A stretch of DNA of 38,789 bases from a virus. Location: the IMG/VR virus record IMGVR_UViG_3300045885_000480, positions 1-38,789 of that record; one strand, 5' to 3'. Made by a program: the position numbers and the translations under genes. The notes beneath the pieces are model-generated. The model was not told where the DNA came from. It made no database searches and saw only the letters and a program-made list of their open reading frames with translations. Below, one piece after another: positions 7,420-33,419 of the stretch (positions within the stretch are counted from its first letter, which is position 1; every line of letters starts with the position of its first letter).

Positions 7420-7754
7420 TTGTGCGGTACGACTTCGTGTGCAAGCACGGACATGTCTTCGACGAAGTTCGCCAGTCTGGAGACACGAAGGCCACACAGT
7501 GCAAGTGTGGATGCATGGCGTACTGGAAGCCGTCTTTCCAGGCGCAGCCGCAGTTCAAACCCTTTGACCATCCCGACCTGGATCCCTCTGGTCCTGTCAG
7601 GATTGAGAGCCGAGAACAATATGCCAGAGAGTGCGAGCGTAGAGACCTCAACGGCCCCTACAACAGAACAAGCGAAGCCCCTAGACGCACTGCGCGTCAG
7701 GGAGAAAGTCGAGCGCTACGTAAGGCTCGATTGGAAGCCCGACGGAAGGCATGA
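7416..7754 (+). CDS. FmdB-like zinc-ribbon protein
   Basis: 112 aa, ATG overlapping the previous stop (ATGA). The first 40 residues (YDFVCKHGHVFDEV ... TQCKCGCMAYWKPSF) form a CxxGH/CxCG zinc-ribbon of the type seen in FmdB-like regulators and in many small phage proteins. The rest is a charged helix (REQYARECERRDLNG, then Arg-rich). The 3' third overlaps the next gene in another frame by 134 bases. The role in the head operon is unknown. Confidence 0.65.
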   Translation: MIVRYDFVCKHGHVFDEVRQSGDTKATQCKCGCMAYWKPSFQAQPQFKPFDHPDLDPSGPVRIESREQYARECERRDLNGPYNRTSEAPRRTARQGESRALRKARLEARRKA

Positions 7755-7905
7755 CATTCTTGTGGTGGGCATGACCAAGCCGAGCGAGCTTCGTGTCTTG
7801 TTGGAGTTCGGCCTTCGCCATATAAGGGCCTGTCTGTTCAGAGGGCGTCCGATCACCAGTCCACCTCAGGTGGCCTCGCAAAAGCGAGAGGGAGATGACA
7901 CATGA
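7621..7905 (+). CDS. Small hypothetical protein overlapping the zinc-ribbon gene
   Basis: 94 aa if started at ATG 7621; ATG 7771 would give a 44-aa version. The frame has a credible protein-like C-terminal half (KVERYVRLDWKPDGRHDIL ... SELRVLLEFGLRHIRACLF) and its stop couples as ATGA to the scaffold gene, which supports it being translated. The N-terminal part shares DNA with the preceding gene in a different frame. No domain recognised. Confidence 0.5.
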   Translation: MPESASVETSTAPTTEQAKPLDALRVREKVERYVRLDWKPDGRHDILVVGMTKPSELRVLLEFGLRHIRACLFRGRPITSPPQVASQKREGDDT

Positions 7906-8573
7906 GCATACCAGAAGAGCATCTCAAAGCACTTGGTGGGAACCTGCTGGGAGAGCCACCGAAGCCTCCTGCTCCAGAGCCAGAGCCCGAGCCAGAGCCC
8001 CAGCCGGACCCCAGGGACGCCATGATAGAGGAGCTCCGGCAGCAGAACCGCGAGCTCAGCAGGAAGATGGACCAGCAAGCAGGACTGGTCGCCAAGATGG
8101 TGGACCAGACGTCAGAGCGCCCCGTTCAGAGGACCGAGGCCGCCGAGCCTGACTTCGAGAGCATGACTCCCGCTCAGCTCGCCCGCCACGTCATGGACTC
8201 TGTGAAAGAGGGGCACGATGCCATTCGACGTGACCTCGGCTTCGAAATCGTGAGGATGCGCCTGGAGGGCCAGCTCACGTCGCTCCATGAGAGCGACCCC
8301 GAGGGGTTCGAGAAGCACAGCGAGGACATCGTCCGCATCGTCAAGGAGAAGGGAGGAAAGGTCACGCCTGCAGAGGCTCTCGCCATTGCGAAGTCTCAGG
8401 CTGCACCTGTGGCGCCGAAGGAAGAGACGCCTCCTCCAGCACCGCGACGTGTCGCCAGCACGGGGACCGTACCGGGTCGCTCAACCGCAAGACAGGCACC
8501 TGCTCCAGTGAAGACGAGCAGAGAGGCGGCGACTCGCGCGTACGAAAACATCTTCGGACGCAAAGCAAGATAG
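7902..8573 (+). CDS. Scaffolding protein
   Basis: 223 aa. The start overlaps the previous stop (ATGA). Scaffold proteins direct capsid shell assembly and are then removed. The features fit: low-complexity Pro/Glu repeats at residues 18-35, a predicted coiled coil (IEELRQQNRELSRKMDQQAG, about 44-65), a long acidic helical middle, and a basic, Pro/Ala-rich C-terminus (SREAATRAYENIFGRKAR) of the type that binds the capsid protein. It lies directly before the major capsid gene. The assignment rests on position and composition, since scaffolds are poorly conserved. Confidence 0.75.
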   Translation: MSIPEEHLKALGGNLLGEPPKPPAPEPEPEPEPQPDPRDAMIEELRQQNRELSRKMDQQAGLVAKMVDQTSERPVQRTEAAEPDFESMTPAQLARHVMDSVKEGHDAIRRDLGFEIVRMRLEGQLTSLHESDPEGFEKHSEDIVRIVKEKGGKVTPAEALAIAKSQAAPVAPKEETPPPAPRRVASTGTVPGRSTARQAPAPVKTSREAATRAYENIFGRKAR

Positions 8574-8584
8574 GAGACTGACAC

Positions 8585-9550
8585 GTGGCAGCTCCAGCAA
8601 CCATCACAGAACAGCTAGACTCGCTGTACTCCTCCACCTGGCAGGAGATGCAGGGGAGAGCCTGGGACCAGATCTACAGCGCCAGGCCCTTCTACTGGTG
8701 GCTGTACAGCAACGAGCGGATGGAGACGCAGAACGGCGGCCGCTTCATCGGCGTGCAGCTCAACTACGCCAAGCCGGGTACTGCGAAGTCCATCGGCCGT
8801 GCTGGCACGATCAACATCCAGCCTGTGGATCCCCTGACCACGGCTGTGTACAACTGGAAGTACGTCGCCAACAGCGTGCAGCGTCTGTTCGTCGACGATC
8901 AGCAGAACAGCTCGGAGTACGAGATCATCGACAGGGTGCAGAACGCGGTGGACAACTGCATCTTGGACCTGCAGGACACTCTGGCCCAGATGTGCTTCGG
9001 TGACGGGTCAGGGAACGGAGGCCTGGACATCGAGGGCCTCGACAAGCATATCACCACCACGCCGACAGTGGACAACGGCCTGGGCGGCATCAACAACGCC
9101 ACTCACACCTGGTGGAGGAACATTCAGAACACCTCCCTGGGTGCCATGGACGTCTACCTGCTGGCGGACCTGCGGAAGCTGTTGCGCAGCGTGTCTGACG
9201 GCGTCGACTACCCCCGCCTGCTCCTCACCACGGCGGACATCTTCGAGGCCTACGAGGCGGAGGTGCTGGAGTTCTACCGCACCGACAACCGGAAGGCCAC
9301 GGACATGGGCTTCGAGAACTTCACGTTCAAGGGCGTCACGATGTTCTGGGACGCGCTGTGTGGCGCCGGACGTGTGTACGCCATCAATGACAAGTACATG
9401 AAGCTGAAGTACGACCCTCGCGTCATGTTCGCCATGACCGAGTGGAAGCAGATCCCGAACCAGCTGGACCGCGTAGCACAGGTTGTTCTGGCAGCGAATC
9501 TCGTGACCACCCAGCGCCGTCGGCAGGGTGTCACGACGGGCATCGCATAA
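8585..9550 (+). CDS. Major capsid protein (HK97 fold)
   Basis: 321 aa, GTG start with AGGAG eight bases upstream. Typical of podo- and siphovirus capsid proteins of this length: an N-arm (ITEQLDSLYSSTWQEMQGRAWDQIY), an E-loop-like segment with GGRFIGVQLNYAKPGTAKSI, a spine-helix region (DNCILDLQDTLAQMCFGDG), and a C-terminal stretch with FKGVTMFWDALCGAGRVYAIN and a typical final beta segment before QRRRQGVTTGIA. It follows the scaffold gene, and codon use is strongly biased toward C/G-ending codons, as in highly expressed genes. The fold assignment is by pattern recognition. Confidence 0.9.
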   Translation: MAAPATITEQLDSLYSSTWQEMQGRAWDQIYSARPFYWWLYSNERMETQNGGRFIGVQLNYAKPGTAKSIGRAGTINIQPVDPLTTAVYNWKYVANSVQRLFVDDQQNSSEYEIIDRVQNAVDNCILDLQDTLAQMCFGDGSGNGGLDIEGLDKHITTTPTVDNGLGGINNATHTWWRNIQNTSLGAMDVYLLADLRKLLRSVSDGVDYPRLLLTTADIFEAYEAEVLEFYRTDNRKATDMGFENFTFKGVTMFWDALCGAGRVYAINDKYMKLKYDPRVMFAMTEWKQIPNQLDRVAQVVLAANLVTTQRRRQGVTTGIA

Positions 9551-23602: not shown

Positions 23603-24847
23603 TCATGGACGAAGAGCACCACGACCACGTTCCTCCTGAGGAGGTTCAGTGAGGTAGTAGGTGTGCTGTCCGTCCTTAAGGTCGGGGCGCTCACCTATGA
23701 GGCGGGCGTGTAGGAGGGTTTCGATCGCCTGCCTGTACTGCATGCCGTTCATGTAGAACACAAGCCTGCGCAGTAGGTCTCCGCTCCTCATCTGTCCACC
23801 GTGTGCGCGAAGGATCTGGAGGATCCTGCTCTGGTCCACACCAATTGGCCGACTCCCAAGCCACTTGAAGTTCTTCAGCATACTCTCCTCAAGGAAGCCC
23901 AGGAGCTTGTTCGCCGTGACCATGTCTTCCGTAGTGATGCGTATGCGTTCCTCACTGACGGCAATGACCATGGCGAGGCGCAGAAGGTGGTCGGGCTTGC
24001 GCTCGTGGTAGCCGGCCATCTTCTCATCCTCAGGCACGTTCTTCTTGCTCGCCGTATACCACATCTGATACCACAGCTTGTCCTGAGGAGTCTTGAAGTG
24101 CATCTCCCCGATCTCTTGCTTGCGGAGGGCGCGCAGCCAGTCAGTGAGGTTCTGAGGCTTGTCGCGAACGTCCGGTATGGGGAAGCAGCGAGGAGTGTCC
24201 TCCTGCACGACGAAGAGCAGACGGCTCATGAATCCTCCGCCGAAGGCGTCCTGGGGGATGGCTGTGATGAGCCAGTCTGGAGTGGAGGCACCAAGGAAAG
24301 TGAGACAGACGTTGTGGAGCTCCGTCTTCCCCGCGCCCTTCGTACTGATCTCCCACTTGTCTGGGTTGTCGAAGAGCGCCGTGAGGAGGGTGATGAGGCC
24401 CTCATTGTATTTCTGTTTGCCAAGGAAGACTGCAAGCTCTGGAGCATAGATAACACCTTCCGCTGGCTTGGCTGCCAGAAGCTGTTTGTCACCAACTGTA
24501 AGACTAGATAGTTCAGACGCGAGGGCTTCGGGTGTGATCTTATCTGCCAGGACATTGCACTCATCAAGTTCACGTAGGAGACCAAGTCCCAGGTTGAGCG
24601 CCGACGTCTTGCGACACTTCCCAGTGGGAGCAACCAGAATGACCTGATGGTTGGGGAAGACCTTGTAGTACCCTTTCTGGAACCACGCTCGACGAGACAG
24701 TGTAGCTCCCAGTACTGCCGCCCCTGTGAAGAAGTGAAAGGCGGCGGGCGCTTCGCTCCAGTTCGTGTATTGGAGGTACGCATGCAGGAATCCTTTCCTT
24801 GGTGCGATGTCCATGAAGGGTTCGTGAGGGAGGTCTGTGTCAGTCAT
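23603..24847 (-). CDS. P-loop ATPase, probable phage helicase/primase-helicase-type (DUF3987-like)
   Basis: 414 aa from ATG 24847, which overlaps the upstream gene's stop by 8 bases; 65 further upstream codons in the open frame are shadow. After FHFFTGAAVLGATLSRRAWF (38-57) comes NHQVILVAPTGKCRKTSALN, a P-loop-like motif (74-82) in which the second Gly of Walker A is replaced by Arg, as in some phage DUF3987-type ATPases. GVIYAPELAVFLGKQKYNEG and VCLTFLGASTPDWL follow, typical of that family. The C-terminal 100 residues look like a winged-helix domain. Helicase or origin-associated activity is inferred from family resemblance and replication neighbours. Confidence 0.65.
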   Translation of the reverse strand: MTDTDLPHEPFMDIAPRKGFLHAYLQYTNWSEAPAAFHFFTGAAVLGATLSRRAWFQKGYYKVFPNHQVILVAPTGKCRKTSALNLGLGLLRELDECNVLADKITPEALASELSSLTVGDKQLLAAKPAEGVIYAPELAVFLGKQKYNEGLITLLTALFDNPDKWEISTKGAGKTELHNVCLTFLGASTPDWLITAIPQDAFGGGFMSRLLFVVQEDTPRCFPIPDVRDKPQNLTDWLRALRKQEIGEMHFKTPQDKLWYQMWYTASKKNVPEDEKMAGYHERKPDHLLRLAMVIAVSEERIRITTEDMVTANKLLGFLEESMLKNFKWLGSRPIGVDQSRILQILRAHGGQMRSGDLLRRLVFYMNGMQYRQAIETLLHARLIGERPDLKDGQHTYYLTEPPQEERGRGALRP

Positions 24848-25538
24848 TCTGCGCGATCTCTCGGAAGCGATCCATGTTGAACCGCATCCGCTCCACAGTC
24901 TCTGTGTCGTAGACTGCTTCCATATCAATGCGTCCGTGCCCGCGGAGGTGGGCGTGAAGGTCCGCATGGTATATGGCAGCCTTGATCGGCTTGCTGGTGT
25001 CCACACTACTGTTCTGCAGGCGGAAGGACTTGAGGATCTCAAGTTCCTCCATGCTGTTCAGTCCGAGGAAGTGGTACCAGGTGTTGTCCCCGTCAAACCA
25101 GCCCCGAGCGGCGATGGCCTTGAGAATCTCCACGCGGGGAGTGCGGAAGGGGAAGCAGATGATCTCGCAGGCTTGGTCGCGGTACCATCTGTAGAGGTCA
25201 ACCATTTCCTGGACGTTCTTGCCTTGGAGGACGCCGGCGACTTCGCAGTCGAATCTTGCGGAAGCAAGGCGCCAAGCGTCGCGCGTACGGTCAGCATCTC
25301 CCATGAAGTCAGGTGCGATAACAACAGTAGGGCGGGCGAGACGAACAGCGCGTGTGAGCTGGCCAATCTCGAGAGGCTCTCCAAGCTCGAACATGCCGTT
25401 GTCCATGACACTTCCAGGCCCGTAGGCCGTTCGGTAAGCCTCACTTGACAACCACATGTGAGCAAGAGTGAAGTCATATTCCATATGCTCGCGCAACTCT
25501 TTTACGTGCGCAGTCGGTATCTCGAATGAACATTTCAT
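24840..25538 (-). CDS. dpdA: TGT-like 7-deazaguanine transglycosylase (DpdA-like)
   Basis: 232 aa from ATG 25538 (AGGTG upstream, ATGA overlap with the previous gene). Queuine tRNA-ribosyltransferase (TGT) and its DNA-acting relative DpdA swap guanine for a 7-deazaguanine. The sequence shows the TGT landmarks in order: MDNGMFELG (Asp46, like TGT DSGGFQ), IAPDFMGD (Asp77), GVLQG (Gln105), HFLGLNS (155-161), and SSVDTSKPI (Asp180, placed like the TGT nucleophile). It is much shorter than cellular TGT and lacks the Cys zinc site, as expected for phage DpdA forms. With FolE, QueD, QueE and QueC in the same operon, it probably inserts preQ0 into phage DNA. The identification is by motif. Confidence 0.7.
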   Translation of the reverse strand: MKCSFEIPTAHVKELREHMEYDFTLAHMWLSSEAYRTAYGPGSVMDNGMFELGEPLEIGQLTRAVRLARPTVVIAPDFMGDADRTRDAWRLASARFDCEVAGVLQGKNVQEMVDLYRWYRDQACEIICFPFRTPRVEILKAIAARGWFDGDNTWYHFLGLNSMEELEILKSFRLQNSSVDTSKPIKAAIYHADLHAHLRGHGRIDMEAVYDTETVERMRFNMDRFREIAQND

Positions 25539-25984
25539 GCCCACCTTTCTGGCCTCCCTCTGTTGCCTCGGTTTATTGCTTGAAGAATGCCTCCAAGCGT
25601 GATCAGTTTCGCCTGGTGTTCTTGGTCGAGCGATCCCTTGACTCCTCTGGGTTTGATCATGGAGCACATCTCTATGACCAGGTCTAGTTGGTACTTCTTG
25701 ATGACTAGGTACTGGTGTACTGCTCTACCAACGATGGGGATGTCTTGCGCTGAGTAGAGTCGCCACTGCATTATTGGTTTCGACCTGGGAGATTGATTCT
25801 TGTATGGGCCCGCCTTGCTTCCTGGATATCGCTCAACTATCCAGTTGATGAGGCGTTCATCCGTATTGGACACAACGATGTAGGGCATTGGCAGGTTTTG
25901 TGAGCCTCTGATGGTGGCAGACACCGTACCCTCCCCATCAATGAGGGCCGCAAGCCTCGCATGGTCAGTCTCTTCACTTGTCAT
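25535..25984 (-). CDS. LAGLIDADG-type homing endonuclease
   Basis: 149 aa. Residues 10-20 (RLAALIDGEGT) are a clear LAGLIDADG motif with the acidic residues that bind metal. SNTDERLINWIVERY and the VHQYLVIKKYQLDLVIEM helix are the usual companions of a single-motif, dimeric enzyme. The start overlaps the polymerase stop by one base (TAATG) and the stop overlaps the DpdA-like start (ATGA), so it is spliced neatly into the operon without an intron or intein frame. It would cut a DNA site in phage lacking it, probably near the polymerase gene. Composition is somewhat less GC-rich than its neighbours, consistent with mobility. Confidence 0.8.
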   Translation of the reverse strand: MTSEETDHARLAALIDGEGTVSATIRGSQNLPMPYIVVSNTDERLINWIVERYPGSKAGPYKNQSPRSKPIMQWRLYSAQDIPIVGRAVHQYLVIKKYQLDLVIEMCSMIKPRGVKGSLDQEHQAKLITLGGILQAINRGNRGRPERWA

Positions 25985-27201
25985 TATCTCTTTGCCTCCC
26001 CCCAGTTCTGGAGGACCTTGACGTCTGTTGGCGTCCGCAGGCCTGGAAGGCGTTCCTTCTCGAAGTGCTGACGGATGATGGCCACGTGCTCTTCCAGGCC
26101 CTCCTCGGGCACTTCCATTCCCATGGCGTCATGGTGGTCGAAGACGGGGAACACCTTGCCGCGCAGACGTGGGTCGTCGTGGATGTCGACGTGGATTTGC
26201 ATGAGGAGGTCGTGTGCCGTGCTCTGGGGGATCATGTTCTGTGTCTGACGCTCCCGCTCAGAGTCACTTTGTTCAATGAAATACCTACGGCGCCCGAAGG
26301 GGTTAGCAATGTACTTGTTCTTGGCAGAAAATATATTGTTGATCGCCATCCACTCCCAGAGACGTGAGAATCGATGATGGTGTCTGTCAAAGATATCCTG
26401 GGCGTCTCGAAGAGTGATGCTAGTGTGTTGCTCAGCCATGCTTTCAGGTCCTCTTCCGTACGGAAGCCCAAAGTTGATGAACTTTGCTTGGAACCTTTCT
26501 TCCCCAGATATTTCCTCAGGGCTCTTTCGGAAAATTTCTGCTGCGGTTTCACGGTGACTGTCGCCTCCTTTCTCCATGATCGCGAGGCCCACTGGGTCCT
26601 GTGACTGATGCCACATGATGCGCAGCTCTATCTGCGATAAGTCAGCCACAACAAGACGCATCCCAGAAGGAGCCACAAAAATGGACCGAGCCTTCCCAGG
26701 AGGGTACGTATGTACGTGGCACGAGTATCGTCCGGTTTCCGTGCCGTGCATCTTCCACTCTGGGTGGTATCTGTCGACTTCGTCGAGTGTGAGGCTGAAG
26801 TAGGTTGACGCAAGTTTCCCAGCCCTCCTTGCATCGAGGATCATGCAGCCAATCTTGTAGATGGCAGGATCGAAGCTCCTCAACATGCGGCGGGTCTTGT
26901 CTGGATCTTCATGAATGCCACACACCTTCATGATGGCGTCGTCGTCAGTTGTAGGCGTGGCCTTGCCACGCTTACGCTGCACGTCCATGCCCAGCTCATC
27001 GTACAGGAAGGCGGCGACCTGCTGGGAAGAGCGAGGGTTCAGGCCTGGCTTGACCTTCTGTAGGTCTGCCTCAATGGCAGCACCCTTCGCCAGCTCTTCG
27101 ACGTACATGTCTGTCATGCGCTTCCTGTCGACAAGCATACCTCGCTCTTTCATATGCAGCACGGCCTCGGACGCCCGCATGACAATCTCAGCGAGCCTCA
27201 T
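25984..27201 (-). CDS. polA: Family A DNA polymerase, polymerase domain only
   Basis: 405 aa; the start overlaps the 44-aa zinc gene (ATGA). It holds the thumb/palm/fingers part only. Visible are TGRYS (156-160), motif A DLSQIELR (187-194), motif B from Lys240 through NFG to Tyr248 (KFINFGLPYG), and motif C HHDAMGMEV (356-364), where the usual VHDE is HHDA. The PNLQNIP stretch is replaced by HTYPPGKARSIF. There is no exonuclease domain; it appears to be supplied by the separate upstream UDG-exonuclease gene. It should be the replicative DNA polymerase of the phage. The motif C substitution (Glu to Ala) is noteworthy but occurs in other phage polymerases. Confidence 0.85.
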   Translation of the reverse strand: MRLAEIVMRASEAVLHMKERGMLVDRKRMTDMYVEELAKGAAIEADLQKVKPGLNPRSSQQVAAFLYDELGMDVQRKRGKATPTTDDDAIMKVCGIHEDPDKTRRMLRSFDPAIYKIGCMILDARRAGKLASTYFSLTLDEVDRYHPEWKMHGTETGRYSCHVHTYPPGKARSIFVAPSGMRLVVADLSQIELRIMWHQSQDPVGLAIMEKGGDSHRETAAEIFRKSPEEISGEERFQAKFINFGLPYGRGPESMAEQHTSITLRDAQDIFDRHHHRFSRLWEWMAINNIFSAKNKYIANPFGRRRYFIEQSDSERERQTQNMIPQSTAHDLLMQIHVDIHDDPRLRGKVFPVFDHHDAMGMEVPEEGLEEHVAIIRQHFEKERLPGLRTPTDVKVLQNWGEAKR

Positions 27202-27332
27202 CCTGCCCGCACCTCATGCTCGTCACGACACCACTGACACTCCTTGACCTTGTGCACTCGGCACACTGCTGTGTGGTCAGGATGGCACAGCCTGCTGCAC
27301 GCCGGACACAGCCACGTGAGGTCCTCGATCAT
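27198..27332 (-). CDS. 44-aa zinc-finger microprotein between the two polymerase parts
   Basis: ATG 27332 overlaps the UDG-exonuclease stop (ATGA) and the stop overlaps the polymerase start (ATGA). The peptide has six Cys in CPAC, C-x7-C and CQWC arrangements plus several His (LCPACSRLCHPDHTAVCRVH), a small zinc ribbon. Perfect coupling on both sides makes chance unlikely. It may be a clamp- or bridge-like accessory joining the exonuclease and polymerase subunits, but that is inference. Confidence 0.6.
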   Translation of the reverse strand: MIEDLTWLCPACSRLCHPDHTAVCRVHKVKECQWCRDEHEVRAG

Positions 27333-28372
27333 ATGAGGTTCAGCTCCCTCAGCTCAATGAGCTGTTTGTGGAGGGCCATGAGGGTGACGTCCACATCCCG
27401 GCAGTTGTACCAGGCTTTGCGGACAGTGATCTGGTCCTTGTAGTAGGAGTACGGGGAGTAGATTGAGGCGAGGAAGGCTAGGTCATGAGGCAGATGCGGG
27501 TACAGCAGGTGGCTGTACAAGAGGCTGTTGTGAATTGGTGAGGGACAAGGGAAGCCGAAGCGTCTTAGGTGGTAGGCGTCGAAGATCGAGTCATGCGTGC
27601 CGATGCCCTTGGTGTTCTTGAAGAACCAGAACAGCCAGTGCACGTACTCAGGCTCATCCACTGGCACTGAGATGGCGAGGCGCTCCTGGTAGCACAGGCC
27701 TACCAGATCAATGGCAGCAAAACCAAAGTCAGTCTCAATATCCACGACAGTAAGAGGGTGCTGGATGCACTCATGGACGAAGTCTTTCACCTCCGGGATG
27801 GTGGGATTTGTAATATACAGCACGTCGGGTTCCTTGTAGCCTGGCGACTTGCTCAGCTCCTTCACTCGACAGAAGTCGTGGATAGTGACGTCCCACATCC
27901 TGCGTTGCCGCATTATGAACGCAGGATGATACGCAGCAAAAGCCTGATACACAGTGTCGCCAACCTGAATCGGGAAATGGGATCCCCGCCAGTCGCTGAT
28001 TGTACCTGCAACGAACTGTTGGAGGGGAGTATTTCCGAGGAGTAGGACCAGGTTAGGATCCACGTTTCGAATTCGGGCGTGAAGGTCGGAGGTCGCCGCC
28101 TTGAGATTCGCAAGAGCGATGTTATTCCCTGGCGGCCTGTGTGAAACAACGTTGTCGATGAAACATGAGCCTCTTGTGATGCCTGCCCGTCCGAGCCATG
28201 CGTCCAGAATTCTTCCAGCTCCTCCCGAGAAGGGGACTCCACTTTGATCCTCCTCTGCACCAGGGGCTTCGCCGAGGATCATGATACGCGGACGGCTTGC
28301 AGCCCCTATGCCATGCACGTGCCTCGTGCCAGGCCAGTTATTTGCTACGCAGGTGCAGGATGTATCTGTCAA
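27329..28372 (-). CDS. Uracil-DNA glycosylase (family 4-like) fused to a DnaQ-like 3'-5' exonuclease
   Basis: 347 aa from TTG 28372, chosen because AAGGTGG lies just upstream; ATG 28441 would add 23 poorly protein-like residues. Residues 34-42 (GEAPGAEED), 77-83 (SHRPPGN) and 148-152 (YHPAF) are the family 4 UDG motifs. The Cys residues that hold the usual 4Fe-4S cluster are mostly missing. Residues about 205-347 are a DEDDy exonuclease: VVDIETD (motif I), HDSIFDAYHL (II), YNCRD (III, Tyr-x3-Asp). This is the proofreading module normally at the N-terminus of a family A polymerase. The protein probably repairs or reads uracil and proofreads for the separate polymerase gene downstream. Confidence 0.75.
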   Translation of the reverse strand: MTDTSCTCVANNWPGTRHVHGIGAASRPRIMILGEAPGAEEDQSGVPFSGGAGRILDAWLGRAGITRGSCFIDNVVSHRPPGNNIALANLKAATSDLHARIRNVDPNLVLLLGNTPLQQFVAGTISDWRGSHFPIQVGDTVYQAFAAYHPAFIMRQRRMWDVTIHDFCRVKELSKSPGYKEPDVLYITNPTIPEVKDFVHECIQHPLTVVDIETDFGFAAIDLVGLCYQERLAISVPVDEPEYVHWLFWFFKNTKGIGTHDSIFDAYHLRRFGFPCPSPIHNSLLYSHLLYPHLPHDLAFLASIYSPYSYYKDQITVRKAWYNCRDVDVTLMALHKQLIELRELNLI

Positions 28373-28811
28373 GATACCACCTTGCTTTCTCAAGATCAGC
28401 CACTCTGTCCTCCTTGTCTCGGCACACGTACTTGATGACACACCCGAGGTGGAAGGGAAGGTCCCATGCCTCGATCAGGTCGATGGGTTCGACGGAAGGT
28501 CCTTTGTAGTGCTCGGAGTGAGGAGCCGCTCCCTTCGAGCCCGGATTGCTGCCAGGTGCGCCGGAATACTCTCTCCAGGGACCTGTGGCAGGATCTGGTC
28601 CAGAAGTGTCTCGCACTGCTCGACCTTCTGGAGTAATGAGGTTAAAGACGTTTCCTGCGAACCCCTCTGACGCAGGCTGTTCAGGTAGATCTGGGCGTAC
28701 GTCTCTGCCCTGTAGTCCAGTGCCTCCAGCATCAAGGTGATCTGCGAGGAGGTAAAGCTCAGATGCCACAGCTCTGATTTCTCTGGTGACTGACTCCCAC
28801 TCACTCATCAT
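28338..28811 (-). CDS. DUF3310 (SaV-like) protein
   Basis: 157 aa; the start overlaps the FolE stop (ATGATGA). The C-terminal 55 residues (HYKGPSVEPIDLIEAWDLPF, then HLGCVIKYVCRDK and DLEKARWYLDRYI) are the typical DUF3310 motif of phage proteins, often called nucleotide kinase-like without proof. The N-terminal 95 residues are helical then Pro/Gly-rich and not recognised. The gene overlaps the UDG-exonuclease start by 35 bases. Confidence 0.75.
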   Translation of the reverse strand: MMSEWESVTREIRAVASELYLLADHLDAGGTGLQGRDVRPDLPEQPASEGFAGNVFNLITPEGRAVRDTSGPDPATGPWREYSGAPGSNPGSKGAAPHSEHYKGPSVEPIDLIEAWDLPFHLGCVIKYVCRDKEDRVADLEKARWYLDRYILHLRSK

Positions 28812-29374
28812 TCCTCCCCATTCCCGTTGCCGTTCCTTGCAAGCGAGAAGAACTCTGCTCTTGCCTCAGGCTTCTCTAGAAACACTCCTCTCAATGCGCT
28901 GGTGGAGACGTATCCGGCCGTCTTGACTCCGCGCATGGTCATACAGAGGTGCCGACCCTTGATGTGGCAGCCAGCTCCAAGGAGCTTGTACCGCTTCATC
29001 AAGCTGTCCACAATGTCCACCGTGATACGCTCTTGCAGAGCAAGCCGACGACAGGTGTGTTCCACGAGTCGTGGGATCTTGCTGAGGCCGGGCACATACC
29101 CCTTCCTCTTGGGTATGTACCCGACCGCCACGTACATCTCGACTGGCAGCAAGTGGTGTGGGCAGAAGCCCCACACGTGGTGAGAGTTGTGGACGATCAT
29201 CTCATCGTACCCGTTGTGAGGGAAGCGCGTCCACTTCACACGGGGAGGATGGAGGACCTCTGAGAACATGCGCGCCACCCGACGAGGAGTGTCCTTGAAG
29301 TCTGGGTGACGAATGTCAACGCCCAGACCCTCCAGCACGCTCAGCACGCCGATGGCGATCAGTTTCTGGTTCAC
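28808..29374 (-). CDS. folE: GTP cyclohydrolase I
   Basis: 188 aa, close to the family core length. It opens GTP to 7,8-dihydroneopterin triphosphate, the first step toward preQ0. Zinc ligands are visible as Cys71, His74 (GFCPHHLLPVEMYVAVGYIP) and Cys144 (HLCMTMRG). GLSKIPRLVE and LQERITVDI are the usual active-site and oligomer motifs. The C-terminus adds a short GNGNGEE tail. Encoded in the operon with QueD, QueE and QueC, it feeds 7-deazaguanine rather than folate synthesis. The start overlaps the small zinc-ribbon gene (ATGA). Confidence 0.9.
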   Translation of the reverse strand: MNQKLIAIGVLSVLEGLGVDIRHPDFKDTPRRVARMFSEVLHPPRVKWTRFPHNGYDEMIVHNSHHVWGFCPHHLLPVEMYVAVGYIPKRKGYVPGLSKIPRLVEHTCRRLALQERITVDIVDSLMKRYKLLGAGCHIKGRHLCMTMRGVKTAGYVSTSALRGVFLEKPEARAEFFSLARNGNGNGEE

Positions 29375-29523
29375 TCCGCTTCGTCGCCTCCCTCTTCCTC
29401 TTCCTCACAGTCCATGCAGGATATCTTCGCCATGGCGATGATGGCTTCGTCCTTCTCCTCCACAGAAATGGTACCCATTTCGTGGCCGCAGTGTTCGCAC
29501 TCTAGAGGGAGGTCTTTGAGCAT
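29371..29523 (-). CDS. 50-aa zinc-ribbon protein between QueE and FolE
   Basis: From ATG 29523 (AAAGGA upstream), with two CxxC knuckles: CEHCGHEMG and CMDCEEEEE. Highly acidic tail. The stop overlaps the FolE start (ATGA). A role alongside preQ0 synthesis is possible from position alone. Confidence 0.6.
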   Translation of the reverse strand: MLKDLPLECEHCGHEMGTISVEEKDEAIIAMAKISCMDCEEEEEGGDEAE

Positions 29524-29537
29524 GTTTGTCCTTTCGC

Positions 29538-30194
29538 TCACTTGATGCTGAGGACCTTGTGAAGTTGGACTGTCAAGCGCAGCCATGGATTTGCCTCGAC
29601 AAGCCTGCGTACCTTGTGCACGTTGGGCCAGTCGACATTCGTGTGGAAGTTGGCTGCTGACAGGAAGATGGGGCCTGAGAAGTTGAACCGGTACCTCTCA
29701 ACCTCTTCCATGCTGAACTCGTCGTCGACGATGAACTTCAGTTCCTTCGCCAGCCTCAGGACCGCAGCTGCCACTCTCCTTTCTCGTTTGGGACTCACGA
29801 CTAGGTGGTCCACGTATGGCAACCAGTCTGGGAGCAGGGAGCCGTTCGACTCCATGTGCACGCGGAAGTTGTTGGCGTGGAGCTGGCCGATGAGCTCTCC
29901 AAGCTTGTGGGCGGTTGGCTCCCCACCAGTGAGGCACGCCGTACGCACCTTGCTGCGCAGGCAGATGTTGATGATCTCCTCTACGTCCACCTTCCTGTAC
30001 GCCAGCTTCCACACCCTTCCCTCACGGTCCTTGAAGTCCTCGTGGATGGTGTCTGGCTGATCACACCACACGCACGCCAGGTTGCATCCTGCCACACGTA
30101 TGAATGTCATAGGAGTGCCGAGGAAGACACCTTCACCCTGAAGGCTGGTGAAGATTTCGTTCACAGCGATTTGTCGTCTAGACTCGTCCGTCAT
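29538..30194 (-). CDS. queE: 7-carboxy-7-deazaguanine synthase
   Basis: 218 aa from ATG 30194; the long upstream extension of the frame is shadow of the QueD gene. A radical-SAM enzyme that converts 6-carboxytetrahydropterin to 7-carboxy-7-deazaguanine. The [4Fe-4S] site is CNLACVWC (Cys37, 41, 44), preceded by SLQGEGVFLGTPMTFIRVAG, with LTGGEPT (88-94), ESNG (115-118) and SPK (134-136), all QueE hallmarks. It overlaps the QueD gene by 17 bases, so the two are probably co-translated. Length is normal for QueE. Confidence 0.9.
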   Translation of the reverse strand: MTDESRRQIAVNEIFTSLQGEGVFLGTPMTFIRVAGCNLACVWCDQPDTIHEDFKDREGRVWKLAYRKVDVEEIINICLRSKVRTACLTGGEPTAHKLGELIGQLHANNFRVHMESNGSLLPDWLPYVDHLVVSPKRERRVAAAVLRLAKELKFIVDDEFSMEEVERYRFNFSGPIFLSAANFHTNVDWPNVHKVRRLVEANPWLRLTVQLHKVLSIK

Positions 30195-30555
30195 GGTCGA
30201 CCCAACAGGTTGCCGTCTCGAAGAGTCTGAGGTGAACGAGCTCGACTGGATCAGCGAACTGACACTTCTCCAGCTGCGCCCACATCCACTGCACGATGTA
30301 CTCACTGGTGGCGTCCTGGACATCGAGGACGTCGTTGATGAACTGGTGGTCGAGGCGGTCGTGGATCGCGTGCTTGAGAGCGTCTCCCACGGCTTGGAAG
30401 TCCACGATTGAGTTGGACTTCTCAGAGACGGGACCCTCGTAGGTGGCCTCCACTCGCCATGTGTGGCCGTGAAGCCTGTGACAGGGGCTGTTCTTCCACG
30501 CACTGCTCTGCAGCTGGTGTGCTGCGTCGAACGTGATGGCTTTCGTGACTTTCAT
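30178..30555 (-). CDS. queD: 6-carboxy-5,6,7,8-tetrahydropterin synthase
   Basis: 125 aa from ATG 30555; an ATG eight codons upstream is less likely because the purine-rich run (GGGGGGAGG) lies between them. It converts dihydroneopterin triphosphate to 6-carboxytetrahydropterin. Zinc ligands are His13 (FDAAHQL), His29 and His31 (CHRLHGHTW), with Cys25 as the catalytic residue. LDHQFIND and the ATSEYIVQW helix complete the family pattern. The start overlaps the preceding Cys-rich gene (ATGA). Confidence 0.9.
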   Translation of the reverse strand: MKVTKAITFDAAHQLQSSAWKNSPCHRLHGHTWRVEATYEGPVSEKSNSIVDFQAVGDALKHAIHDRLDHQFINDVLDVQDATSEYIVQWMWAQLEKCQFADPVELVHLRLFETATCWVDHDGRV

Positions 30556-30782
30556 TCCTCCCCCCTGAAGTGAAGGCATGTGGCAGAGATCCTCTGAGTC
30601 GTCCTATTCCTCTCGAGGCCAAGCAAGAGGAAGAAACGAGGACGGCCGTCGGCTCTCTGCCACATGCCTTGTGAGCACCAGACTAGCGTGCCACTCTTGA
30701 CTCGGCAGAAGTCGCAGTCAGTGCAGTTCCTCTCACCGCGGAGCGTACCCCGTGACCTTGTTTCTGTAGACTGGCTTGCCAT
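30552..30782 (-). CDS. Small Cys-rich protein upstream of QueD
   Basis: 76 aa from ATG 30782, overlapping the upstream gene by 50 bases; no nearer start exists in frame. Its stop couples to QueD (ATGA). The centre, NCTDCDFCRVKSGTLVWCSQ, has four closely spaced Cys in CxxCxxC-x8-C, consistent with a zinc or iron-sulphur knot, followed by a basic, aromatic tail. Unknown function. Association with the preQ0 genes is by position. Confidence 0.5.
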   Translation of the reverse strand: MASQSTETRSRGTLRGERNCTDCDFCRVKSGTLVWCSQGMWQRADGRPRFFLLLGLERNRTTQRISATCLHFRGEE

Positions 30783-31164
30783 CCTTGTCCACCATGGGCA
30801 GGAGTTGCACGGCTCCTGTGGCCGCGTCGACCTTCTGGGTCATACGTGGCTCACGCACCAGGGTCACGCGGAGGAAGGCGCCGATGAGCTCTTCGGTCTT
30901 GAAGCCCGTCGGGCCCGGAAAGACACCGCACGCGTTGACGAAGTCTCTCACTCGCCACAGGGCGGCTTCCGTGAGGGTGAGGTTGTCGAAGAGGATCCTG
31001 CGGCCGGCGTACTCGACGGGCTCGGCGACGATGTAGGACACGTCGAGGTAGGGATTGTTCTTCTTGCTGACCTTCCTCTCGATCTTCTCTACCTGACACA
31101 GGTACTGCGACTCCGGTAGCGCCTCTGCCTCCGGGATGTTCGTGAGGTCGACGTTGATTTCCAT
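30733..31164 (-). CDS. DUF669-like protein (possible single-strand-DNA-binding)
   Basis: 143 aa. The start (MEINVDLTNIPEAEALPESQ, then YLCQVEKIERK) and the core (NPYLDVSYIVAEPVEYAGRR, then DNLTLTEAALWRVRDFVNAC) match the DUF669/OB-like proteins that accompany phage recombinases. It sits just downstream of a Sak4-type ATPase and a RecB-like nuclease, the usual context for a phage ssDNA-binding protein. Direct DNA binding is inferred, not shown. Confidence 0.65.
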   Translation of the reverse strand: MEINVDLTNIPEAEALPESQYLCQVEKIERKVSKKNNPYLDVSYIVAEPVEYAGRRILFDNLTLTEAALWRVRDFVNACGVFPGPTGFKTEELIGAFLRVTLVREPRMTQKVDAATGAVQLLPMVDKDGKPVYRNKVTGYAPR

Positions 31165-31166
31165 GC

Positions 31167-31889
31167 CTAGCCTTTCAGTAGGTGATTCCAGGCCGCTGCG
31201 ATGTTTGCCTTCTGCACCGTGACCTGGGCTGGTGCAGATGGAACCCGACTCTTAGCGTAGTAGATTGAGTCAGGCTGTGTGGTGAGCAGTCGCTCTGTTC
31301 CTCCCTGCACGCTGCGTGCGAACATACGGTACACCTCGTCCGCCAAGTAGCACACTTCGGGGGACATCTGCTTGCCGGGCAGTTCTGGCCCTCCTTTCAT
31401 CATGCCGGACTGGTCCTTGTCGATGCTCTCCGCCGCAGTGAAGATGACTGTCTTGCCCTTCTGGATCAGCAACCTCATGCGGCGGAAGAGGTTGCGGAGC
31501 CTCTCGAGCGTCAGGTAGAAGTCGAGCTGGGCGCTGAGCTCCGGATGCACACGAGGCGCATTGGGTACCTGACTCTGCACCTGTACCACACGCCCGCACT
31601 CTGTGAGCGTGTCACAGATAACCACGTCATGCTCATCGTCGTTCCACAACCAGTCGATGCCGCGCACCATGTCTGGGTAGGACACGACACGGAAGACGCT
31701 GGCCGGCACGTTCTTGACGACGCTGAGACCTGCTTCGAAGTCGAAAGCGAATCGCTTCTTGGCCGGATAGGCGAACGCGAGACTTGTCTTTCCTATGCCT
31801 GGTGGGCCGTAGATGACGATCGACCTACCGTTCGCGTAGGAGATGTCCTTCATGTCCACCAGGCCTGCGAGAGGTGCTTGTTGTGTCAT
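31167..31889 (-). CDS. RecA-like phage recombinase ATPase (Sak4/AAA_24 type)
   Basis: 240 aa from ATG 31889 (ATGA overlap with the nuclease gene); 31 upstream codons of the frame are shadow. Walker A is GPPGIGKTS (28-36), followed by FAYPAKKRFAFDFEAGLSVV, the strand typical of the AAA_24 family. Walker B is VVICDT (89-94). This family includes Sak4 single-strand annealing/RecA-like proteins. Together with the RecB/Cas4-like nuclease and the DUF669-like protein it forms a recombination or replication-repair module. Confidence 0.75.
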   Translation of the reverse strand: MTQQAPLAGLVDMKDISYANGRSIVIYGPPGIGKTSLAFAYPAKKRFAFDFEAGLSVVKNVPASVFRVVSYPDMVRGIDWLWNDDEHDVVICDTLTECGRVVQVQSQVPNAPRVHPELSAQLDFYLTLERLRNLFRRMRLLIQKGKTVIFTAAESIDKDQSGMMKGGPELPGKQMSPEVCYLADEVYRMFARSVQGGTERLLTTQPDSIYYAKSRVPSAPAQVTVQKANIAAAWNHLLKG

Positions 31890-32716
31890 ACCATCCTTTC
31901 CAGGAGCTCTTCCTCGTGGCTGAGCTCCTTCCGCCGGTAACCCATGCCCTCCGCCAGTGTGACGCGGTCGGGGTTGAGGCACAGCATGCGATAGGGGCAG
32001 GTGCCCCAGTTAAAGCACGAGTGGGGTGAGAGCGGCCAGCGGTTCTGGTCGTAGGCGTCAACGATCTCCTGGACGACCTGTGTGAGCTCGTCTTGGAAGC
32101 GGTTCAGTTCATGCTCATCAAGCACAACAAAGTCCCTGACGAGCGCCGGGTACTTCGTCGTCCGTATGATATCGACAAGAGCTCCCACAGGACGCCTGCC
32201 GAGTCGACGCATAGCCCACGTGTATCCACGCACCTGATCGTCCAACTGGAAGCGTCCCACCAGATCGCTAGGTACCTGGCTCGTGAACTTGCGCTCAACT
32301 GTCCACTCCTTCTCATCGTACGTGGCATAGCCGTCGAGCTCTCCGACGTACCACACATGCCGCTTGGTGCGGCCGCTGGTGCTGACGACGACGCCCATGT
32401 CCACCTTCACGGGTGTGCCTGTCATGATGTACTTGAGAGGTTCCTCAGCGTTCTTGATGAAGTACTCTGTGAGGGCATTCGTCAGGAGCGGATGCTGTGC
32501 GAGCTCTGGGTCCTGCACGAGCAGGTCTGCCTTGGACTTGTCTTTCACCCACTCGTCCACTAGTCTGTGGCCAAGGCGTCCGCGAGCGAAGGGCTCGGGC
32601 GTCACGCTGGGCTCCAGGCCCTCCACAGCTGTCCAGTAGTACTTGCGGTGGCACTGCTGGAAGAACAGCCTACTGCTGTGACTGATCAGCAAGTGCGGGA
32701 TCTGAGATTCCTGCAT
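31886..32716 (-). CDS. RecB/Cas4-like PD-(D/E)xK nuclease with Fe-S cysteines
   Basis: 276 aa, ATG 32716 with a purine-rich GAGGGAGAAAGG upstream, overlapping the QueC end by 47 bases. Motifs in order: ISHSSRLFFQQC with Cys22; GELDGY (Asp128); VERKFTS (Glu141-x-Lys143); QLDDQVRGYTWAMRR (Gln161, Tyr165). A C-terminal Cys triad (Cys234, Cys240, Cys246 in CFNWGTCPYRMLC) should hold a 4Fe-4S cluster with Cys22, as in AddB and Cas4. It probably makes 3' single-stranded ends for the adjacent Sak4-like ATPase. There are no cas1 or cas2 genes, so a CRISPR role is not indicated. Confidence 0.8.
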   Translation of the reverse strand: MQESQIPHLLISHSSRLFFQQCHRKYYWTAVEGLEPSVTPEPFARGRLGHRLVDEWVKDKSKADLLVQDPELAQHPLLTNALTEYFIKNAEEPLKYIMTGTPVKVDMGVVVSTSGRTKRHVWYVGELDGYATYDEKEWTVERKFTSQVPSDLVGRFQLDDQVRGYTWAMRRLGRRPVGALVDIIRTTKYPALVRDFVVLDEHELNRFQDELTQVVQEIVDAYDQNRWPLSPHSCFNWGTCPYRMLCLNPDRVTLAEGMGYRRKELSHEEELLERMV

Positions 32717-33368
32717 CGGCGAAACCTTTCTCCCTCACTTTGCATGAGGGGCATTCCATGCACGGCTTCTCGCCTCCGGCGTAGCAGGACCATGTCAGCT
32801 CGAGTGGCGCTCCGAGCTTCTGGCCGAACTTGATCACGTCTCCCTTCGACATATACACGATCGGGGCGAGGATGGAGATTGGATGCCGCAGCCCTAGGCG
32901 AAGCGCTCCCTCCATGGCGTTGAGGAACGGCGGCCGGCAGTCTGGGTAGCCGCTGAAGTCCACGGCATTCCATCCGCCAGCGAGGTAGTGGATACGTCGT
33001 GCGTCAGCGATGCCGCCCAGCATGGCGAGCATGACGATGTTCCTGCCAGGTACGTACGTGTTGCTGACAGCGTAGCCGGCCTGGTCCTGCACCGTGCCTG
33101 CAGCGTCCTGCTGGTTGAATGCGCCGAGAGGCAGGAGGGCGCTGGAGCCCCGAAGGTACTCGAAGTTGACCTTGATGACTTCGGGCTTCGGGAACCCACC
33201 CACCTCGCAGAGGGTCTGGGCGTGTGCCAGCTCTTTGGCGTGCGACTGGCCGTACTGGAAGTGCACTGTGCTGACGACCTCGAAGTCGTAGTGCCTGCAG
33301 TACCAGAGGGTGGTCGCTGAATCCAGCCCACCACTCACGAGGACGATTGTCTTCTTGTCGTCGCTCAA
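32670..33368 (-). CDS. queC: 7-cyano-7-deazaguanine (preQ0) synthase
   Basis: 232 aa from TTG 33368, chosen because AAGGAG lies seven bases upstream; GTG 33407 would add 13 unlikely residues. It converts 7-carboxy-7-deazaguanine, ammonia and ATP to preQ0. The PP-loop SGGLDS (12-17) and the C-terminal zinc site Cys195, 203, 206, 209 (CYAGGEKPCMECPSCKVREK) are intact. GGWNAVDFSGYPDCRPPFLN and the GLRHPISILAPI segment are family-typical. It is separated from QueD/QueE/FolE by three recombination genes. Confidence 0.9.
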   Translation of the reverse strand: MSDDKKTIVLVSGGLDSATTLWYCRHYDFEVVSTVHFQYGQSHAKELAHAQTLCEVGGFPKPEVIKVNFEYLRGSSALLPLGAFNQQDAAGTVQDQAGYAVSNTYVPGRNIVMLAMLGGIADARRIHYLAGGWNAVDFSGYPDCRPPFLNAMEGALRLGLRHPISILAPIVYMSKGDVIKFGQKLGAPLELTWSCYAGGEKPCMECPSCKVREKGFADAGISDPALADQSQQ

Positions 33369-33419
33369 CGTTGGCTCCTTTTTGAACTCTTGAGAACCTT
33401 GTGTCACTTGGTGGCATCA

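Follow-up and report, generated by a model that had tools for sequence, protein, structure and literature searches.

A phage UDG–exonuclease–polymerase gene of the SPO1 type, split at the exonuclease/thumb hinge

The window analyzed here, the full 38,789 nucleotides of viral record IMGVR_UViG_3300045885_000480 (IMG/VR), contains three adjoining genes that encode a uracil-DNA glycosylase (UDG) domain joined to a 3'-5' exonuclease, a 44-residue Cys/His-rich microprotein, and a stand-alone family A DNA polymerase (PolA). Comparison with related sequences indicates that the window genes descend from a fused UDG–exonuclease–PolA gene. We think it likely that this one-chain gene, of the type found in phage SPO1, was split at the hinge between exonuclease and thumb, that the two large proteins redock in a Klenow-like arrangement with proofreading in trans, and that the microprotein serves as an accessory or is simply a passenger. 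What is new is the hinge split of the UDG–exonuclease–PolA gene, together with a wider pattern of recurrent breaks among its relatives. The three genes are:

27329..28372, minus strand: UDG-like domain plus DEDDy 3'-5' exonuclease, 347 residues from a TTG start (PF03167, PHROG_17, structure model)
27198..27332, minus strand: Cys/His-rich (zinc-ribbon-like) microprotein gene, 44 residues (open reading frame with an ATGA overlap on both sides)
25984..27201, minus strand: stand-alone PolA with motifs A, B, and C (PF00476, PHROG_17, motif residues)

The UDG–exonuclease gene overlaps the microgene, and the microgene overlaps the PolA gene, at ATGA sequences where the frame moves by −1; the gap between the two large genes is only 127 bases. 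The sequence AAGGTGG lies directly upstream of the TTG start codon, and an in-frame GTG at 28441 is a possible alternative start. PolA matched Pfam PF00476 (E 1.1e-50), lacks an exonuclease domain, and carries the motif A, B, and C residues D187, K240, Y248, H357, and D358, as compared over 57 representative loci (75 complete loci of a first survey of relatives, reduced at 90% identity). A first-pass annotation of this DNA had described the UDG–exonuclease fusion, the exonuclease-less polymerase, the 44-residue gene, and the ATGA overlaps, all of which were confirmed by open reading frames (ORFs), Pfam, PHROG_17, and structure prediction.

The AlphaFold model of the UDG–exonuclease protein had a predicted local distance difference test (pLDDT) score of 94 and a predicted template-modeling (pTM) score of 0.91. 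Its UDG half aligned with the family 4 UDG 1ui1 (Z 24.4 over 172 residues) and its exonuclease half with the Klenow exonuclease 1kfs (Z 20.8 over 163 residues). In sequence searches, the UDG domain matched Pfam PF03167 (E 2.3e-26), and its best NCBIfam match was to family 4 (TIGR00758; 106.6 bits, below the cut-off of 125.3). The exonuclease had no Pfam match at E ≤ 1; its DEDDy residues are D234, E236, D288, Y345, and D349 (D-x-E, D, and Y-x3-D), and D, E, Y, and D were found in 57/57 representatives, with the other D in 56/57.

Model and alignment placed the pocket motifs GEAPG, N, and HP in a family 4 UDG fold; residues were assigned to the pocket and to the iron–sulfur cluster as we presume them to function. 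Family 4 UDGs have four iron–sulfur cysteines. The third is histidine in the window UDG and is cysteine in only 10/57 representatives, and the fourth, by reading of alignments, is not cysteine in the window protein. The pocket Asn and His, which lay outside our search patterns, were present in 56/57 and 54/57 representatives; the pocket Glu was present in 55/57, a count inflated because EAPGAEE, the motif around it, was in those patterns. These frequencies fit a UDG domain that is still selected for base or DNA binding and has mostly lost its cluster, and uracil reading by the window UDG is possible.

Multiple comparisons support descent from a one-chain replicase. First, the window proteins align in order with PHROG_17, a family annotated as DNA polymerase: the match of the UDG–exonuclease protein spans both of its domains (positions 474–827), and that of PolA follows at 838–1233. 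Second, on a 770-position model of the fused family, built from 51 fused ORFs with near-copies included, the window pieces fell at 8–360 and 367–767, those of the related contig L006 at 7–360 and 367–767, and those of ctLwi270 (L013) at 10–361 and 362–769. Exonuclease motif III and the thumb are separated by 41–44 residues, without an insert, in 39/39 fused representatives; it is in this linker that one window half stops and the other starts. Because the pieces cover the fused model collinearly and the fused linker has no insert, nothing was lost at the break. Third, in the tree of 57 representatives the window and L006 were sister to the fused L025 and L026, with a Shimodaira–Hasegawa-like approximate likelihood-ratio (SH-aLRT) support of 100; in a larger tree they formed a marked set of five with three fused rows, L229 being nearest by path. 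Finally, the prediction for L026 (pLDDT 91.4, pTM 0.89) comprised a UDG plus a Klenow-like exonuclease–polymerase unit, with residues 175–732 aligning with Klenow as one unit (Z 34.9 over 536 residues). Other one-chain relatives occur in Microcystis phage Mel-JY34, vir526, and two Manatee Spring phages.

The UDG, exonuclease, and PolA of the window are therefore homologous to and collinear with those of the SPO1-type replicase but do not lie in one polypeptide, and because they are encoded by separate ORFs with ATGA overlaps, we class the window as a split variant of this replicase rather than a plain member. SPO1 gp31 itself has the same domain order, and its two exons matched the fused model at 6–517 and 519–766. 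It is, however, one protein, and its intron, with an annotated putative homing endonuclease gene, lies inside PolA rather than at the hinge.

An obvious concern is that assembly frame errors cut one long gene into three, and the −1 frame shift at each joint could be read in that way. This possibility can be virtually dismissed. Positions 25984–28441 (2458 bases) matched contigs L002 and L003 without a single mismatch, as did the 1953 bases present in the partial L004, and L006 keeps the same split at 68% (UDG–exonuclease) and 74% (PolA) protein identity, with the Cys/His-rich ORF conserved as well. Thus the frame error named in the first-pass annotation as fatal to its interpretation was not found. 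In comparisons with L006, proportions of nonsynonymous and synonymous differences (pN/pS) were 0.198/0.723 for the UDG–exonuclease protein and 0.189/0.792 for PolA, with synonymous sites near saturation; by these values both large proteins are under purifying selection.

A full-length polymerase elsewhere in the genome, which the first-pass annotation had likewise set against itself, did not appear in the searched records. One DNA_pol_A and one UDG match occurred in each of four records (that of the window, the 49,996-base L002 contig, and the L005 and L006 contigs), and neither DNA_pol_B nor PolIII-alpha gave a match in the three records tried; a second polymerase in these records was rejected on that basis. 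The exonuclease families PF01612 (DNA_pol_A_exo1; 0/4 records) and PF00929 (RNase_T) also gave no match.

In the working that we favor, one SPO1-type gene encoding UDG, 3'-5' exonuclease, and family A polymerase would have broken at the exonuclease/thumb hinge with neither side lost, and a small Cys/His-rich gene would have come to sit at the break. Translational coupling probably ensures joint synthesis of the two large proteins, which most likely reassemble as in Klenow, so that proofreading would act in trans with the exonuclease as a subunit. The E. coli Pol III alpha–epsilon pair is a precedent for trans proofreading. The UDG domain, with its base-binding pocket, probably scans or binds DNA, either for uracil or for processivity. 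The separate chains and the kept UDG pocket would also suit an arrangement without any complex, in which PolA is a proofreading-free replicase and the UDG–exonuclease a separate repair enzyme, but adjoining overlapping genes, one-chain descent, and conserved hinge ends make this improbable.

Several points weigh against a docked two-part replicase accompanied by its microprotein. The exonuclease searches leave room for another, divergent exonuclease, because PF01612 also misses the one that is present, and the searched records may be fragments, with another polymerase lying outside them. Moreover, the microprotein is not constant among split relatives, and its pN/pS against L006 (0.365/0.617) indicates faster change than in both large proteins.

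Breaks recur in this gene family at a few sites: inside the exonuclease before motif III (site 1), at the exonuclease/thumb hinge (site 2), and inside PolA before motif A (site 3). Each scan contributed the 80 loci of highest similarity, which do not form a random sample. In the first survey, which left out nine partial loci (L024, L027, L030, L055, L067, L072, L073, L076, and L107), the 57 representatives comprised 39 fused genes, 7 broken at site 1, 3 at site 2, and 8 at site 3, and their tree required 11 changes. An enlarged survey with two more scans gave 208 loci and 120 representatives, leaving out 16 loci that ended at a contig end, 7 UDG-only loci, and matches stopping before model position 700. 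Fused genes again predominated (95), with 24 split (9 at site 1, 4 at site 2, and 11 at site 3) and one containing an in-frame stop; the tree of 119, made without this last row, required 14 changes, or 4, 2, and 8 when the sites were counted alone. Neither L347, which has the in-frame stop, nor L263, which has an odd break and clusters with the fused L250, was counted as a split type. Named phages among the split rows include Caulobacter phage Kuura (site 1) and Vibrio phage VS-ABTNL-3 (site 3; pieces 6–526 and 530–755), and the exons of SPO1 gene 31 (L190, 3438–7133) meet at model positions 517/519, inside the site 3 range.

The hinge itself was broken twice. A single clade of the window, L006, and ctLwi270 was rejected by the approximately unbiased (AU) test on the first tree (p 0.0025), and in the larger tree ctLwi270 grouped with L193 (support 100). 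We infer two separate hinge breaks because that clade is rejected, the window and L006 have fused rows as their sister group, and ctLwi270 lies with L193; all trees were quick ones, and L013 (ctLwi270) sat on a long branch until L193 was added.

Some surveyed loci showed other features. The lone stop in L347 (6023–6027) falls in the exonuclease–polymerase linker of an otherwise fused polymerase and could reflect recoding or an error. Seven viral loci (L230, L242, L249, L253, L254, L266, and L271) matched the fused model in the UDG part only, with no exonuclease or polymerase match on the same strand of the fetched DNA. A single-protein scan with L013 gave no matches, and a genome-contig scan returned, by match length, mostly bacterial stand-alone UDGs among the matches listed.

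The gaps are filled by different genes. HNH endonucleases occupy those of L041 and L046, and MazG that of L062. Between the halves of the family A polymerase domain, L051 (7569–9771) carries ThyX, DUF3310, and other ORFs. The two halves of the L031 polymerase are separated (7647–9478) by a protein that matches Mom weakly, below cut-off, together with an RNase_T exonuclease and a 72-residue Cys-rich protein. Proteins of DUF7768/DUF1937/DUF4406 lie in the gaps of L071 (6277–6711), L088 (7010–7522), L094 (7462–7842), and L048 (7635–7991); these three families cross-match weakly, and the DUF1937 protein is also weakly like nucleoside deoxyribosyltransferase. In the L006 gap, a DUF1508 ORF and the Cys/His-rich ORF (8100–8363 and 8278–8415) overlap out of frame. 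The hinge gap of ctLwi270 holds an NrdR-like zinc ribbon of uncertain start codon (TIGR00244, E 1.3e-11 over the ribbon part; 44.8 bits against a cut-off of 124.65), and its nearest relative, L193, has at the same break site a 160-residue ORF without CxxC and without a Pfam match. Other gap ORFs had no family match.

Three sites broken repeatedly and filled by different genes bring up the possibility that inserted or mobile genes left the window break as a scar, with the zinc ORF a passenger in a tolerated gap and without a role in replication. The intron of SPO1 gene 31, with its putative homing endonuclease gene, lies in the site 3 range, a possible sign that this site was opened by mobile introns or endonucleases. 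In addition, an ORF that begins at the PolA stop codon, directly downstream, is LAGLIDADG-like and had no counterpart in L006 in a neighbor search (9/11 queries counted; DUF3987 and Sak4 left out):

25535-25984, minus strand: LAGLIDADG-like ORF (PF14528, E 0.0056, below cut-off; PHROG_5046, E 3e-14)

We regard the scar as a serious contender that falls somewhat short of even odds: the window microgene retains its ATGA overlap on either side along with most metal-ligand residues, neither of which a passenger would need, and the hinge site itself showed neither an intron nor an endonuclease. Group I introns were considered for the window and the other split loci tried and were rejected, with none at the Rfam gathering threshold and a window gap of just those 127 bases. 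Rfam gave no match of any kind in the window at gathering score, and one match, a tRNA in L051, among 18 sources.

The term zinc ribbon for the 44-residue protein is taken from its Cys/His spacing, and the fold is putative. The protein is 52% conserved with its L006 counterpart, and 9/10 Cys/His residues are kept compared with 14/34 other residues (Fisher p 0.007). It had no family match at a meaningful level (Pfam best E 0.22; PHROG) and no convincing homologues beyond the L002/L006 group in phages (best E 10) or the PDB (best E 0.26). A search of viral contigs found 5 loci, all of this group, and a scan with profile A2 found the group plus two distant loci. Homology to the NrdR-like ribbon of ctLwi270, which seemed convincing by eye before shuffling, was rejected, as 368 and 184 of 2000 shuffles with Cys/His fixed scored as high and there was no similarity beyond Cys/His.

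Might the microprotein be a genuine third subunit, acting as a small clamp or adaptor that links exonuclease to polymerase in place of the lost covalent hinge? Its gene has ATGA overlaps on either side, its Cys/His residues are kept in L006, and the independently split ctLwi270 also has a zinc ribbon at the hinge, although two-CxxC proteins make up only 24/584 short ORFs in the surveyed loci (including the gap ORFs of the window, L013, and L031, not L006). Zinc ribbons at two independent hinge breaks are suggestive, but the comparison was made post hoc, involves two lineages, and is broken by L193. The extra DUF1508 ORF in the L006 gap and the dissimilarity of the window and NrdR-like ribbons outside their Cys/His residues also count against a clamp, which we consider doubtful. 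Because L193 has a different ORF in its gap, a zinc protein as a required subunit is not supported. Of the three-protein complex proposed in the first-pass annotation, the pairing of the UDG-bearing proofreading unit with PolA is plausible and has support from the one-chain homologues, whereas the microprotein as a fixed third member is not supported, given the gaps of L193 and L006. On the split-and-redocked working that we prefer, the microprotein could be either an accessory or a passenger.

The first-pass annotation did not recognize that UDG, exonuclease, and PolA in one chain are already known from PHROG_17, PaBG gp205, and SPO1 gp31, so the novelty is the split and not the UDG. Passages on Pseudomonas phage PaBG and the Lupandier group describe an N-terminal UDG, a 3'-5' exonuclease, and a C-terminal polymerase in gp205, which unlike the split window genes is one DNA polymerase I protein (PMC7412058). 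Profile A5 also matched the UDG–exonuclease part (residues 9–350, E 7.8e-26) of the family A polymerase of Thermus phage phiLo, a single 1142-residue chain in PDB entry 9qhs, which is known to us by its sequence and by a title containing 'with modified template' (released 2026-03-25).

Other phage polymerases are divided differently. In OM43 phages MEP401 and MEP402, two ORFs separated by a small unknown one encode a family A polymerase, but their break is inside the polymerase domain with the exonuclease on the N-terminal part, like site 3 and not the hinge, and the passages of the source mention no UDG (PMC10580990). Jumbo phages have polymerases without a fused 3'-5' exonuclease and a split Pol III alpha, and a separate exonuclease has been suggested to join the replication complex; its gene lies elsewhere in the genome and, unlike in the window, no UDG–exonuclease fusion is mentioned in the source passages (PMC7824862). 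The HMO-2011-type polymerase is described as having an in-chain DnaJ-like zinc insert located, in domain terms, between exonuclease and polymerase (PMC9038755); as in the window, a zinc module accompanies a phage polymerase of family A. As a parallel at the same hinge this insert was rejected, since we read the HMO-2011 sequence as placing it within the thumb. In the vaccinia E9–A20–D4 holoenzyme, a uracil-DNA glycosylase in a viral replicase is reported to serve processivity, which is a functional analogy and not kinship. The vaccinia polymerase belongs to a different family, and the adaptor is unrelated. The domain terms sought were absent from the passages of the YerA41 polymerase paper. 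Searches of open-licence PMC papers gave the MEP401/MEP402 and jumbo-phage cases and no UDG–exonuclease–PolA gene split at the hinge. Although regarded as a single chain, this replicative polymerase has been broken repeatedly at a few sites, and such natural two-part family A polymerases would make proofreading testable in trans and offer small natural proteins in which the role of a uracil-glycosylase domain in a phage replicase can be addressed.

Genes of a modified-base pathway lie near the replicase genes:

28808-33407 and 24840-25538, minus strand: 7-deazaguanine gene set (FolE, QueE, QueD, QueC, and a short DpdA-looking protein)

QueC, QueD, QueE, and FolE were identified with Pfam and NCBIfam. 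The short protein, which we take to be the transglycosylase DpdA, had no Pfam, NCBIfam, or PDB match and matched only PHROG_19058, of unknown function (E 2e-6). The nearby Que and FolE genes, together with this presumed DpdA, suggest 7-deazaguanine in the DNA of the window phage. One could then imagine the metal-binding microprotein bridging the UDG-bearing proofreading subunit and the polymerase, with the UDG pocket reading uracil or 7-deazaguanine and the replicase carrying template inspection as a detachable function; we judge this unlikely. Parts of the 7-deazaguanine set were also found by the neighbor search in L006, L024, L025, L026, L047, and others.

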